DNA of 64,000 nucleotides from Cylindrospermum sp. NIES-4074 (GTDB lineage Bacteria > Cyanobacteriota > Cyanobacteriia > Cyanobacteriales > Nostocaceae): assembly GCA_003994795.1 (NCBI GenBank), contig AP018269.1:5233677-5297676 (forward strand). Reading direction: 5' to 3'. Below the pieces are notes generated by a model. The model was not told where the DNA came from, ran no database searches, and saw only the letters and a list, made by a program, of their open reading frames with translations. Shown piece after piece: positions 48,812 to 59,044 of the stretch (its first letter is position 1; each line of letters opens with the position of its first letter). The position numbers were made by a program, and so were the translations under genes.

Positions 48812-49314
48812 AGGTATTCATGAGCGGAAATGCTTACTCTGCTTGAATTTTAGCTTATTTTGGGCTGACGGGTTGTAGGTTAGTTAAACCCAATGAAACC
48901 CAACCTCAATATTTGGACATATAACTTTTTTAAATATAATTTTTAGGAAATTTGTGGAAATTAGTAATTTTTGCAATAGCATAGGTTAATTCTCAAGATT
49001 ATTGAGAATATTTTCAATAATTTTACGAAAATTCGTTATTACAGGGATTGATATTTTAGCTCTTTTTTCTGTATACTTGACATAGATATAATCCAAAGGG
49101 GCATTATTGCTTTAAAATAAAGCATTAAACCCTATAATATTGAAAGTTTAGCAATAATTAAGGTAAGAAATTCATTTGTAGGGACACAGCACTGCTGTGT
49201 CCTTGCGTCTTTTGTATCTGAAGTTTTATTATCTTTGCCTAGAGAAAAATACACAAAATCACTAAGAGCATATACTGAGTTGCAAGACTGTAAAATTACT
49301 AAAGGATTTAGTAA
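48812..49314. other. Divergent intergenic region
   Basis: About 500 bp, AT-rich, with a hairpin GGACACAGC-ACT-GCTGTGTCC at 49182-49202. That sequence context (gtagggacacag...) is common as a spacer repeat in Nostoc-group genomes. No coding frame is recognised. Confidence 0.5.
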
Positions 49315-51024
49315 ATGTATAGCAGGCAACACAGAACTTCCAAGAGCAATTCAAATGATTCTGAAACACCAGCCTCGAATCAGTTTGCCCCGCGCCCCTT
49401 CGTAGTTCAACCCCAAGTTGCAGAACCAACGACCCAACAAAACCAAACAGCTGATTTACAGGCTAAAGAAGGAAAAACCAAAGAAGTTAGTGATGGCTTC
49501 CCAGACCCATCTGTATTTACTCGTCATACAGCACCACCAAAGCAGCCAAGAATTCAGATGAAGCTGACCATTGGTAAGCCTAATGAGTTGACGTCCCATG
49601 AACTGACCCATGAGGTACAGCAGGGGGATGGAGTTCAAATGCGACAGATGGGGGAAAACTCCACCCTACAGACAAAAGAATCTACAGAGAATGATGACCA
49701 TAAACGCATTGCTGGCGACATTACTGGAGTCTTTGAGGGCGGCAAGCCCGGTTCGGTTCAAACAGTGGACTCTGGTATCGTCAGCTATGGCAAGCATCAA
49801 GCAACCATAGCTTCAGGGTCACTTTACTTAATTCTCAAGGCTTACACTGAGTCTTCCAAGACCAGTACAGCGGCTAAAGTAGCTGAGTATTTAGCGCAGG
49901 TTCAGAAAAAAGATGAAACCCTGCGTAAAGACGAAGCATTTCATAACCTGCTTAAAGACGCAGCTAAGGACCCGGAAATGGTTCGCGCCCAAGATGATGT
50001 CTTTAGCCAGAAGTACTGGAAGCCAGCTAGGCAAACTGCTGAAAAAGCGGGAATTAAATCTGCTCTCGGCGAAACAATCTTCTATGACACCAAGATCCAG
50101 GGGGGATTAGAAGCTGTCTTGGAAAGCACTAAGCAGCGGCTAAAAGATAAGAAGTATACTGAGCAGGAGTTTTTAGGCATCTTTCTCGAAGAGCGCGAAA
50201 AGCGCCTTTATGCGATCGCTAAACAGAAGCGTGCCAAGGGCGATGAGAAAACTGCCAAGATGCTAGAAAATTCTGCTAAAAACCGTGTAGGAGCACTTGA
50301 TGCCTTGGTTAAGTCGGGAAACCTGGATCTGATTGGTGACGAAAAGGGACAGATCAAGATTGGAGGCAGAAAGATCACTGCGCTAGGGAAAGGCTCAACT
50401 ACCAGTAACAATGCAAGTGCAGCAAATCCCAGCAGCAATCAGGCTGCCACTTCGAGTCAGCCTGCAAAAGCAACACAGTCTGCCACTTCGAGTCAGCCTG
50501 CAAAAGCAACACAGTCTGCCACTTCGAGTCAGCCTGCAAAAGCAACAGCCGAGAAAAGTCAGGTAGGATTTAAGCCGAGTGATCCTAAAGGGCACATCGC
50601 CAAGCTGCACCCTGGACTGCAAGCTAAGGTGCAAACCCTGATTGAGAACGCCCACAAGAAGGGACTCAACGTTTGGATCGTCCAAGGTCTACGCACTATT
50701 GAGGAACAAAACGAGCTGTACGCCCAGGGGCGGACAAAGGGTGAAAAGGGCAAGACTGTCACTAACGCTAGAGGGGGTAAGAGTTACCACAACTATGGCC
50801 TTGCTGTGGATGTGGTATTTCATGGTTCTCAACCCTACGGTGAGGGCAATGACTGGAAAGCTCTTGGAGAAGCAGGCAAAGAGGCTGGCCTTGAATGGGG
50901 TGGGGACTGGAAGAGTTTTAAAGATAGACCCCATTTCCAGATGCCTGGTCTAAAAATCAGTCAGCTTCAGGCATGGTACGCCAGTGGAGGTATGAAGAAC
51001 GTCTGGAAGAACGTTACAAATTGA
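49315..51024 (+). CDS. Putative injection-system cargo: leader, lysozyme-like domain, M15 peptidase
   Basis: This 569-residue protein lacks a signal peptide. Residues 1-110 (MYSRQHRTSK..., NQFAPRPFVVQPQ, PRIQMKLTIGKPN, LTSHELTHEVQQG) look like the leader of cyanobacterial DUF4157/eCIS-core proteins. The zinc-peptidase-like DUF4157 is shortened to its last part. Residues 130-350 (ITGVFEGGKPGS, DSGIVSYGKHQAT) resemble a lysozyme/chitosanase-like hydrolase. A linker at 375-415 has three ATSSQPAKATQ repeats. Residues 420-545 are an M15 peptidase: H492 and D499 in SYHNYGLAVDV, then EWGGDW and H540 in DRPHF. Two cell-wall-cutting domains behind such a leader suggest a contractile-injection-system cargo. 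No CIS structural genes are in view. Confidence 0.78.
   Translation: MYSRQHRTSKSNSNDSETPASNQFAPRPFVVQPQVAEPTTQQNQTADLQAKEGKTKEVSDGFPDPSVFTRHTAPPKQPRIQMKLTIGKPNELTSHELTHEVQQGDGVQMRQMGENSTLQTKESTENDDHKRIAGDITGVFEGGKPGSVQTVDSGIVSYGKHQATIASGSLYLILKAYTESSKTSTAAKVAEYLAQVQKKDETLRKDEAFHNLLKDAAKDPEMVRAQDDVFSQKYWKPARQTAEKAGIKSALGETIFYDTKIQGGLEAVLESTKQRLKDKKYTEQEFLGIFLEEREKRLYAIAKQKRAKGDEKTAKMLENSAKNRVGALDALVKSGNLDLIGDEKGQIKIGGRKITALGKGSTTSNNASAANPSSNQAATSSQPAKATQSATSSQPAKATQSATSSQPAKATAEKSQVGFKPSDPKGHIAKLHPGLQAKVQTLIENAHKKGLNVWIVQGLRTIEEQNELYAQGRTKGEKGKTVTNARGGKSYHNYGLAVDVVFHGSQPYGEGNDWKALGEAGKEAGLEWGGDWKSFKDRPHFQMPGLKISQLQAWYASGGMKNVWKNVTN
50447..50548 (+). repeat. In-frame 33-bp tandem repeat in the cargo linker
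   Basis: Three near-identical 33-bp units encode ATSSQPAKATQS, forming the flexible linker between the lysozyme-like and M15 domains. The unit number could vary between strains. Confidence 0.8.
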
Positions 51025-51128
51025 GGGAGTTCCAGCAGCAAACAGTCTGCCACAGCGAAACCACCCGAACGGCGACGGCTGGATGGACATCGAGCAGGTA
51101 CGCAAATTCTTCATTGAGGTTAATATCA

Positions 51129-51587
51129 ATGGTTAACAACAAATTTGTGTCTGCGGTTGTCGTTGCCTGGGTGGTTGTCGCCTGCGCGATGCCAACAACT
51201 GCACCCGTGAAGACACCAGCCCCAAAGGCAACATATTTAACTTGTAATTTTTCGGAGGAACAAATGACCAGTAATGAGATCACGATCAAGGAGAGCACGC
51301 AACCGACGATTTCAGGACACCTAGTTGGTGTTAGCAACATTTGGGAACGGGAGCTACCGGATGATCAGGGTGCGATCGCCTCCGGCGGGCGTTTCGCCAT
51401 CGCTCCCCGCATGAGCGCGAGCCTTTCCATCCAGGACATTGCCTCGGAGCAGACACGTGCTGAGAAGGTGTTTGCTGGCAGCGTGTTATCCCTGGGAGCT
51501 GATCGCTACTGCGTCGTCAATGTCGAAGAAGGGAATTCGACACCCGGCATGATCACCCTGCGTAAGATCATGGCTGTCAATAAATAA
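51129..51587 (+). CDS. Small lipoprotein following the cargo gene
   Basis: A 152-residue protein with a lipoprotein signal: hydrophobic residues 7-18, then VVAC with Cys19 as the acylated residue, and a Pro/Thr/Lys linker. The ATG at 51129 has GAGG ten bases before it; the longer open frame from 50973 overlaps the cargo gene and is not favoured. The globular part has no recognised family. Residues about 81-98 (GAIASGGRFAIAPRMSAS) are encoded by a GC-rich interspersed repeat inserted in frame. Its position 104 bp after a cell-wall hydrolase gene makes an immunity or inhibitor role possible, but that is only inference from context. Confidence 0.7.
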   Translation: MVNNKFVSAVVVAWVVVACAMPTTAPVKTPAPKATYLTCNFSEEQMTSNEITIKESTQPTISGHLVGVSNIWERELPDDQGAIASGGRFAIAPRMSASLSIQDIASEQTRAEKVFAGSVLSLGADRYCVVNVEEGNSTPGMITLRKIMAVNK

Positions 51588-51655: not shown

Positions 51656-52573
51656 CTAATCTATATCCTCCCAGGTAATTGTCATCATCTTTTCTTTGTC
51701 AATTTCCGAAAGCTGAACTAATCTGTTAGCCTGTCTTTCAATTGTTTTTTCAAAGATATTCCTCACGAGTCTACCATTCCCAAATTTTTTATCTTTTTGA
51801 GCATATAAATTTGTGAATTTATCAAGCAGTTTTTGCTTGGCGTCTTTGGTTATTCTAAAATGGTTCTGTTGGCAGACTTTCTCAAAAATATTTAATAACT
51901 CTCGTGGTTTATAGTCATCAAAATGAAAATATCTATTAAATCTTGATTGTAGTCCAGGGTTAGCATCGATAAATCTTGACATTTCATCACTATAACCGGC
52001 GACGATAACAACTAACCTATCTCTATGGTCTTCCATTCGTTTAAGTAAAGTATCTATCGCTTCTTGTCCAAAATCCTTTCCAGAACCTGCCGGTGCTAGC
52101 GCATAAGCTTCATCAATAAATAGCACACCATCTAATGCTGATTCAACCAATGCGTCTACCTTAATTGCTGTTTGTCCAACATACCCTGCAACTAATCCTG
52201 ATCTATCAGTTTCGACAAGATGACCTTGAGAAAGTATTCCTAATTGTTTGTATATTTCACCCATGAGACGAGCAACTGTTGTTTTCCCGGTTCCGGGAGG
52301 GCCACAAAATACTGAATGTAGAGAGACGGAAATATTAGATAGTCCTTGTTCCTGACGCATTTTCTGAATTTTCAAAAAATTGATGAAAGTATTAATTTCA
52401 TCTTTGACGTTTTCCATTCCCACAAGATTATTGAGTTTGTTAAGAATATTTTCTAAATTTTCAGAGTTAGAATCATCGTTACCTGTACTATTAAAATTCT
52501 TACTTCCAGAGAGTTGTAACTCTCTCTTCATTCGCTGCAATTCAGCATCTATTTCAGGATCTCGATAAGTCAT
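51656..52573 (-). CDS. CbbX/SpoVK-type AAA+ ATPase
   Basis: This 305-residue protein has a helical N-terminal region and an AAA+ core: Walker [10 protein letters not shown] (91-99), Walker [12 protein letters not shown] (about 142-152), arginine finger region [10 protein letters not shown] and sensor-2 area [10 protein letters not shown]. The sequence belongs to the SpoVK/CbbX group; CbbX remodels Rubisco, while others act on unknown proteins. The N-terminal ~45 residues are Asn/Ser-rich and probably disordered. It converges with the lipoprotein gene. Whether it serves the cargo protein next door, as ATPases do in some injection-system loci, is unknown. Confidence 0.85.
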
Positions 52574-57857: not shown

Positions 57858-59044
57858 AGCTGTTGTGCAGCTTGATTGTATAATAGAGGTTAAGTAATCA
57901 AGCAAAAACCAGGAAGGTATGCCAGCAAAAAACCATTTATCTCAAGAGCAGAGGGAACGGCTATTAAAAAATCTAAAAGAGCAAGAAAATCCCTATGTAA
58001 GAGAGAAGATTCTCATCTTATTGTTGATGAATGATGGTAAAACATACCAAGAAATTAGTAATTTTTTAGATATTGCATATCCAACAGTAGCATATTGGGC
58101 AGTGCATGGAGATCCTGACAACCTAGAAAGTTTTTTAGATGGGAGAAGAGAAGGAAACTTCCGTAAAGTAACTAAAGAATATGAGAATTTGTTGTTACAA
58201 GTAATTGAGAAAACCCCCGAAGAATATGGATATGAATTTGGGAGATGGACATCGGCAAGATTGGCAACATATCTGGAAATAGAAACAGGTATTAAGTTAA
58301 GTAGCTCTCAAGTGAGGAGAATTTTAGAGAGAAAAAAGTACGTTTACCTTTGGGCAAAGTACAGCCTAGAGGACAAACAAAATCCAGAGAAGCGTAAGCT
58401 ATTTAAGGAAAAACTATCAGAGTATTTGAAAATAACTCTCATAAACCCAAAGCGTTTACAGGTATGGTTTTGGGATGAAAGTGGATTTAGTTTAAGAGTG
58501 ATAAGAAGAAAAACATGGATTCGTAAAGGTAACAAAAAGAATGTGACGGGGCAAAGAAGAAGAGGAAGAGTAAATATTATGGGAGGACTGCGTTATCATG
58601 ACAAAAAAAGAATGAACTTTATAATTAAAAAGGGAAATGCAGATGTCTTTTATGAGCAGTTGAACTTATTGAATAATTTCTTGATGCAAGAATGGATAGA
58701 GCAAGGAAACAAGCTAGAAGACTTTAAGAATGATTCTGCCAAAATAGTCATTATCCTAGATAATGCCAGCTTCCATAAAAGAAAAGATATCCTAGCTCGT
58801 ATTGAGGCAGAAATGCCAAATATTATTTTGGAGTTTTTACCAGCTTATAGTCCAGATTATAATTTAATTGAATTGGTTTGGCATTCAGCAAAAGAATATA
58901 TAGCGCATAGATTATTTGAGTCGGTAGAACAGTTAGAAGAGTTATTAAATAAATTACTGAATGAAGGAGGTCTTCTGATTAAATGGGAGCGCAAAATTAA
59001 AAACAAAGGTAATGCTGTTTATTCAATTTAGATGCGTAACAGCT
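57858..59044 (+). mobile_element. IS630-family insertion sequence, 1,187 bp
   Basis: Terminal inverted repeats of about 26 bp are visible: left AGCTGTTGTGCAGCTTGATT, right (reverse) AGCTGTTACGCATCTAAATT. It is flanked by TA at 57856-57857 and 59045-59046, the target duplication expected of the IS630/Tc1 group. It encodes one intact transposase and has no internal stop, so it may be active. Confidence 0.9.
57919..59031 (+). CDS. IS630-family transposase
   Basis: This 370-residue DDE transposase has an N-terminal helix-turn-helix region (LLLMNDGKTYQEISNFLDIA) for end recognition. The catalytic triad is Asp186 in VWFWDESGF, Asp281 in IILDNASFHK and Glu318 in YSPDYNLIELVW; the 36-residue gap between the last two is typical of IS630. 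It is full length without frameshift, unlike many IS630 copies that need one. A strong AGGAAGG site lies just before the ATG. It has inserted in the small TPR gene, opposite in orientation. Confidence 0.95.
   Translation: MPAKNHLSQEQRERLLKNLKEQENPYVREKILILLLMNDGKTYQEISNFLDIAYPTVAYWAVHGDPDNLESFLDGRREGNFRKVTKEYENLLLQVIEKTPEEYGYEFGRWTSARLATYLEIETGIKLSSSQVRRILERKKYVYLWAKYSLEDKQNPEKRKLFKEKLSEYLKITLINPKRLQVWFWDESGFSLRVIRRKTWIRKGNKKNVTGQRRRGRVNIMGGLRYHDKKRMNFIIKKGNADVFYEQLNLLNNFLMQEWIEQGNKLEDFKNDSAKIVIILDNASFHKRKDILARIEAEMPNIILEFLPAYSPDYNLIELVWHSAKEYIAHRLFESVEQLEELLNKLLNEGGLLIKWERKIKNKGNAVYSI

Follow-up and report, generated by a model that had tools for sequence, protein, structure and literature searches.

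The 569-residue protein encoded at positions 49315-51024 (+ strand) of the window, the whole 64-kb stretch of DNA analysed here (C1:5233677-5297676, from a genome of 7.70 Mb in five contigs), is probably a peptidoglycan-cutting cargo, or effector, of a contractile injection system (CIS) encoded about 126 kb away. We infer its loading, delivery and activity from what can be observed directly: the anatomy of the protein, the repetition of its N-terminal tag within the genome, the CIS locus, and the co-occurrence of the tag with one type of sheath. The first-pass annotation had already proposed a CIS cargo, and a genome search strengthens that reading by locating genes for sheath, tube, gp25, baseplate J, spike and AAA+ ATPase.

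Architecture of the window protein

The 569-codon reading frame is present in the ORF listing, and the M15 peptidase and its residues H492, D499 and H540 are present as first annotated. A signal peptide had been described as lacking, and the protein indeed has no hydrophobic N-terminal segment (the highest 15-residue Kyte-Doolittle mean over residues 1-100 is 0.03). The protein begins with a leader of 88 residues (MYSRQHR...NQFAPRPFVVQPQ...GFPDPSVFTRH...PPKQPRIQMKLTIGK; 49315-49578, +), delimited by identity, by a boundary of DNA similarity and by dN/dS. The 94 nt preceding it (49221-49314, +) form a 5′ flank that is part of the same repeated cassette, as placed by the start points of blastn matches between leader genes. 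A 14-pair hairpin with a T-rich tail is seen at 49177-49207, approximately 110 nt upstream of the leader gene.

The leader is followed by a stub of DUF4157 (Pfam eCIS_core) at residues 89-106 (49579-49632, +), in which the HExxH motif is kept as HELTH at residues 95-99. An earlier reading, that this domain had been reduced to its last 15 or so residues, was close to the mark: the last 18 eCIS_core positions remain, in a Pfam match that covers only profile positions 61-78 of 79 and scores 11.7 bits, below the 22-bit cut-off. No second eCIS_core match was found elsewhere within the 64-kb window by Pfam profile search. The rest of the protein comprises a GH46-like glycan hydrolase region with putative catalytic residues E141 and D152 (residues 121-350; 49675-50364, +), identified by Pfam, PDB match and alignment; a low-complexity linker of TSSQPAKATQSA repeats (50389-50556, +), read from the translation; and an M15 peptidase of the L-Ala-D-Glu endopeptidase type (residues 430-553; 50602-50973, +), identified by Pfam and PDB searches. 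Elsewhere in the window, a DDE_3 transposase gene with winged-helix domains lies at 57919-59031.

A CIS with a sheath like that of the Streptomyces cytoplasmic type

The CIS genes are located at 5.411-5.458 Mb and encode tube proteins, a sheath, two Pvc16_N proteins, an AAA+ ATPase, Baseplate_J, Tail_P2_I, gp25, a spike and CIS_tube. Between the window gene and the closest tube gene there are 126 kb, and the genome holds one match each to Phage_sheath_1 and gp25. The window gene had been described as an orphan cargo locus, which is accurate within the window and does not hold genome-wide. A genome without any CIS locus and phage relatives without the leader had together been named as findings that would speak against a cargo; the phage relatives are indeed leaderless, and the CIS is present.

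The sheath matches that of the Streptomyces cytoplasmic CIS (8bky) over its full length (E 1.5e-111, residues 5-563), whereas the match to Anabaena All3325 of the tCIS (7b5h) is confined to residues 376-560 (E 3.9e-52). Structures 8BKY and 8BL4 were deposited by the Streptomyces CIS-Sc paper, in whose available sections the codes 8bky and 7b5h are named (PMC10066040). Since 8bky is by far the better match, we dropped an identity with the thylakoid-anchored tCIS of Anabaena; the CIS, known here from its genes alone, is Streptomyces-cytoplasmic-like (class IId) as judged by the sheath match. Two further candidates were rejected. Delivery by a T6SS found no support in the genome, where TssB/VipA (PF05591) had zero matches and an E. 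coli control was positive. The AAA+ gene beside the cargo locus (51656-52573, -) was set aside as a loading ATPase, being SpoVK/EccA/CbbX-like, weakly IetA-like and on the opposite strand.

The downstream lipoprotein

A predicted lipoprotein of 152 aa (51129-51587, +), recognized as an ORF with a lipobox (VVAC) by eye, is co-directional with the enzyme gene. Its likely start, ATG 51129, lies 104 bp past the enzyme-gene stop, at the spacing first annotated; the mechanically listed ORF at 50973-51587 (204 aa) overlaps the enzyme gene. On the + strand, nothing resembling a promoter or a terminator was found in the gap between the two genes. A short frame in that gap (NHPNGDGWMDIEQVRKFFIEVNING, within window 51025-51136) resembles a coding remnant by eye. 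The lipoprotein had no relatives in 290 other genomes of the order, and searches for its identity gave a best Pfam value of 0.21, not above chance, a best NCBIfam value of 0.043, and nothing in PDB or PADLOC. From its position and compartment it is a plausible candidate for an immunity protein.

Small downstream genes accompany other leader genes as well. A small same-strand ORF begins within 120 bp downstream of 6 of the 12 leader ORFs of this genome, against 7 of 84 genes in a background of crude ORF calls of at least 300 aa (binomial 2e-4), and of 3 of 9 leader ORFs in other genomes. In two of the twelve cases the ORF that follows is lipoprotein-like (window; 5461135-5461698).

These ORFs bear on the alternative that survives best, to which we give a substantial if less than even chance: that the cargo is fired inside the producer or its filament, as a wall hydrolase serving regulated cell death, with a lipoprotein that only limits damage from leakage or is unrelated. 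Such self-directed lysis would suit a sheath that matches the Streptomyces cytoplasmic CIS along its full length and the Anabaena tCIS only in part, and envelope-targeting effectors have been proposed for the Streptomyces cytoplasmic CIS (Casu 2023, PMC10066040, as far as the text is accessible). However, the lipoprotein-like ORFs, and the small ORFs found more often behind leader genes than in the background, hint at protection from a toxin directed at foreign cells.

Enzyme domains and their likely substrate

The domain first annotated as lysozyme-like does belong to the lysozyme superfamily, and can be named more exactly as GH46-like because Pfam Glyco_hydro_46 matches residues 168-315 (E 1.6e-16, 61 bits against a cut-off of 27). 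In a PDB search the nearest type of solved relative was a chitosanase (7c6c, E 8e-13). Both E141 and D152 are invariant in eight of eight aligned relatives, the assignment of the Asp being made by eye, and E141 is taken as the putative catalytic Glu because it is aligned with a position that distinguishes 7c6c from 7c6d (E against A). GH46 chitosanases (7c6c, 1chk) resemble the window domain in fold family, by sequence, and in the position of this Glu, but the similarity is remote, and the window domain is part of a fusion that includes a leader and an M15 domain.

Within the M15 part, the Pfam families VanY and Peptidase_M15_4 match residues 430-502 (E 6.7e-13) and 485-543 (E 1e-14), respectively, and the three zinc residues form an H-x(6)-D...H site. 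The closest solved structures are 2vo9 (E 4.3e-26) and LysB4 (6akv, 7.5e-26). These LAS-type L-Ala-D-Glu endopeptidases, like CwlK, share the M15 domain and zinc residues with the window protein but are leaderless endolysins or autolysins.

The GH46-like region was matched in 8 of 291 genomes of the order, our genome included, and all eight fall in the set with the same type of sheath (p 2e-5). All relatives in the seven other genomes are leaderless ORFs, and most of them have repeats resembling PG_binding_1 by eye. Five viral contigs carry remote relatives (24-30% identity); by eye, four of these are large tail-type proteins and the fifth is endolysin-like. Because of these repeats and viral relatives, peptidoglycan is favoured over chitosan as the substrate, though not to the point of proof. 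The leaderless phage and cyanobacterial relatives also fit a history in which the enzyme domains would have been captured behind the leader.

A true chitosanase and peptidase, used for nutrition or against fungi or eukaryotic grazers, is the use to which the chitosanase structures nearest to the GH46-like region would point. In addition, the leader ORF at L154:2078-4531 (-), from another member of the order, has an IpgD-like domain at its end (E 1.4e-33), a hint that the machine may carry some cargos that act on eukaryotes. We nevertheless consider this use unlikely for the window protein, to which a peptidoglycan-type M15 domain is fused and which has no secretion signal, and whose cyanobacterial and viral relatives have the wall-associated settings just described.

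A repeated leader cassette

A search with residues 1-126 of the window protein found nine further sites in the genome at E <= 1.2e-17 and a tenth at 3.4e-5; a twelfth, divergent leader ORF at 667159 was detected by profile search only (E 5e-4). Five of the nine close leader ORFs are found within the CIS locus or next to it, at 5.408-5.463 Mb. The other four map to 0.27, 2.57 and 4.12 Mb and to the 220-kb contig C4, those at 4120671 and C4:205190 being near-duplicates. The nine leaders are 47-81% identical to the window leader. In every one of the nine blastn comparisons, DNA similarity to the window gene stops at codons 83-90; in eight of them it sets in 5-94 nt ahead of the start codon, and in the ninth inside the ORF, at +46.

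The passengers behind this edge vary. Of ten close ORFs, the window ORF among them, three carry eCIS_core, and the others show a weak alpha/beta-hydrolase match, DUF4329 or no match; the full eCIS_core is missing from seven, including the window ORF and a 150-aa ORF at 5419247 that was so counted on the genome-wide search alone. The first-pass annotation had linked the leader to eCIS, and a similarity check bears this out, as the leader is common to the window protein and DUF4157/eCIS_core proteins of the same genome. The whole genome contains 16 eCIS_core matches in 15 ORFs. In one DUF4157 protein beside the CIS (C1:5429224-5430399), leader and core are separated by a run of 20-residue repeats that are nearly identical (VQREGLPEEEEVQAKSLSDT). 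Other shared N-termini also precede DUF4157 on C1, namely MYKP..SRIPTTAPK (2579734, 5118165, 5690023), MVYKRVQ (4283356, 101003, 5337477), MSKSG.RTSAAAWQPTSQ (4203478, 3110424) and MSRHK.QKSSF (3140906, 2694203), and these several families coexist with a single sheath match in the genome.

The leader dN/dS is 0.19-0.37 in all nine pairs with the window gene (median 0.33, maximum 0.87 over 45 pairs). The retained DUF4157 stub, and the evident duplication and deletion, could be taken to mean that decayed DUF4157 genes were fused to unrelated genes and that the leader is idle in the window protein. Such a relic is quite improbable, given that the dN/dS values indicate purifying selection, that the passengers are intact and that the design of a leader without DUF4157 is also found in other genomes. 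It is very improbable indeed that the protein is a phage endolysin or autolysin of the usual kind with a chance extension at its N-terminus. Phage, Geobacillus plasmid and CwlK-type enzymes do share 44-54% identity with the M15 part (best rows among the matches listed), but at least ten genes have the extension as a conserved element, and the phage and plasmid records (best 15 of 289 and best 25 of 45) match residues 398-553 only.

The leader and the sheath in other genomes

Our order sample comprised 291 genomes, in each of which the best 17 or 20 candidates were scored. The sheath of our genome finds 119 of them at E <= 1e-10 and 79 at E < 1e-140, the latter being the cut chosen to define an own-type sheath; in the remaining 40 sheath-positive genomes the similarity, among the matches listed, lies mainly in the C-terminal third. 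A strict leader profile (A1) was positive in 30 genomes, every one of which has an own-type sheath, compared with 79 of 291 overall (Fisher 8e-20, inflated by kinship). With our own genome left out the count is 29 of 29 (Fisher 3e-19, again inflated by kinship). None of the 40 genomes having only other, weaker-matching sheaths contains the strict leader, and within the same family (n=29) the sheath is present in five of five leader genomes against 9 of 29 (p 0.001).

Among the 79 own-type-sheath genomes, 49 had no strict leader and 18 no broad leader in the best 17 or 20 candidates per genome. The broad profile (A3) was positive in 75 genomes, 61 with an own-type sheath and 14 without, the latter having another sheath type (12) or none (2); part of this spread is expected because A3 includes the motif before DUF4157. 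At E <= 1e-5 the broad leader was detected in 13 genomes of a phylum sample of 254, which partly overlaps the order sample; the own-type sheath occurs in 17 of the 254, and these include 12 of the 13. Two broad-leader genomes fall outside the order, and both have the own-type sheath.

The leader also occurs apart from DUF4157 in these genomes. Among 22 leader matches, hand-picked with a preference for those ending before the DUF4157-proximal part, HELTH is present in 7 and missing in 15. Ten of the non-HELTH leader ORFs were scanned, and none had eCIS_core at E <= 0.01; the five outside the scan include two that look like DUF4157 variants by eye and one 80-aa fragment. M15_4 was matched in two of the ten, in one above the cut-off but over profile positions 40-70 only, and in the other below it. 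Three more carry PG_binding_1, an IpgD-like domain and annexin repeats, respectively, and the remaining five gave nothing. The M15_4 and PG_binding_1 matches are modest evidence that wall-active domains recur behind the leader. In one genome (G246), at least four open frames of 96-99 aa consist of the leader only (contigs C27, C1, C38 and C77), at least some near contig ends, as if the repeated cassette broke the assembly. A leader search of named genome contigs returned a sole locus, in Dendronalium phyllosphericum CENA369; the leader relative there is a DUF4157 protein, with a tube-like gene about 3.5 kb away. This named relative and the gene content suggest that the window comes from a filamentous cyanobacterium.

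Taken beyond the window protein, we lean slightly towards a reading of the leader as a sequence-conserved, DUF4157-independent address tag, a DNA cassette of 5′ flank and approximately 88 codons that has been copied onto passengers on the chromosome and a second replicon. By such fusions the machine would gain a range of cargos that includes wall hydrolases, an alpha/beta hydrolase and a protease-like protein; the tag would follow its own sheath type and not the tCIS, with DUF4157 as an optional second module.

Comparison with known systems

Because AlgoCIS and Streptomyces coelicolor cargos share N-termini, and PVC has loading signals, the general kind is already known, to judge from the available parts of those papers. 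The AlgoCIS cargos Cgo1 and Cgo2 of Algoriphagus machipongonensis have a disordered N-terminus in common and different C-termini, and have been shown to fill the tube (PMC8894135, accessible sections). They resemble the leader proteins as cargos of one CIS with a shared N-terminal domain and different C-termini, but carry a central DUF4157 and are encoded in the CIS cluster (PMC8894135, same sections); the window-type tag, by contrast, would work without a full DUF4157, and its genes are scattered. For S. coelicolor, where shared N-termini of CIS cargos are likewise described, the CIS-Sc effectors Sco4256-4258, set beside the window protein by description, are alike in sheath type and proposed envelope targeting but have a transmembrane helix and in-cluster genes (PMC10066040, in the text available).

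The signal peptides of PVC/Afp effectors are also hydrophilic N-terminal loading signals, with an AAA+ ATPase in the CIS locus (PMC11495950, PMC11297309, in their accessible parts). In the available text they measure 50-70 residues and are grouped by alignment (PMC11495950), and a specific conserved signal sequence of eCIS effectors is reported as not detected (PMC11297309, likewise in part); the window leader, in contrast, has approximately 88 residues, a conserved sequence and a shared 5′ flank. The DUF4157 eCIS-associated toxins are a further parallel, being DUF4157-linked and including some peptidoglycan-active or -binding candidates and some immunity genes (PMC8213781, PMC11297309, in the sections at hand), but the DUF4157 of the window protein is cut to 18 residues. 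A pairing of GH46-like and M15 domains among eCIS toxins was not found in our literature search, nor was a sequence-conserved tag of comparable length that recurs as a cassette, does without DUF4157 and goes with a single sheath type. As subscription papers and preprints lay mostly outside its coverage, the search is weak evidence that the DUF4157-independent, cassette-like tag and the dual wall hydrolase are new, whereas CIS cargos with shared N-termini are not.

Proposed mechanism and implications

The preferred reading, a wall-cutting cargo of the distant CIS, suggests a simple sequence of events. The N-terminal 88 residues would act as a loading tag for the CIS, without the full DUF4157 domain. 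After firing, the GH46-like domain would cleave glycan strands and the M15 domain the L-Ala-D-Glu bond, and we propose that the target wall is thereby breached at two different types of bond. The target might be other cells or the producer's own filament, and the downstream lipoprotein may shield the periplasm of the producer or its sisters.

A conserved, sharp-edged tag found on many passengers and with one sheath type makes loading directly testable, and it reveals cargos that are distant from the CIS locus and have no DUF4157. If the dual peptidoglycan hydrolase is what it appears to be, it would represent a concrete candidate for the envelope-targeting effectors that have been proposed for CIS of the Streptomyces type.
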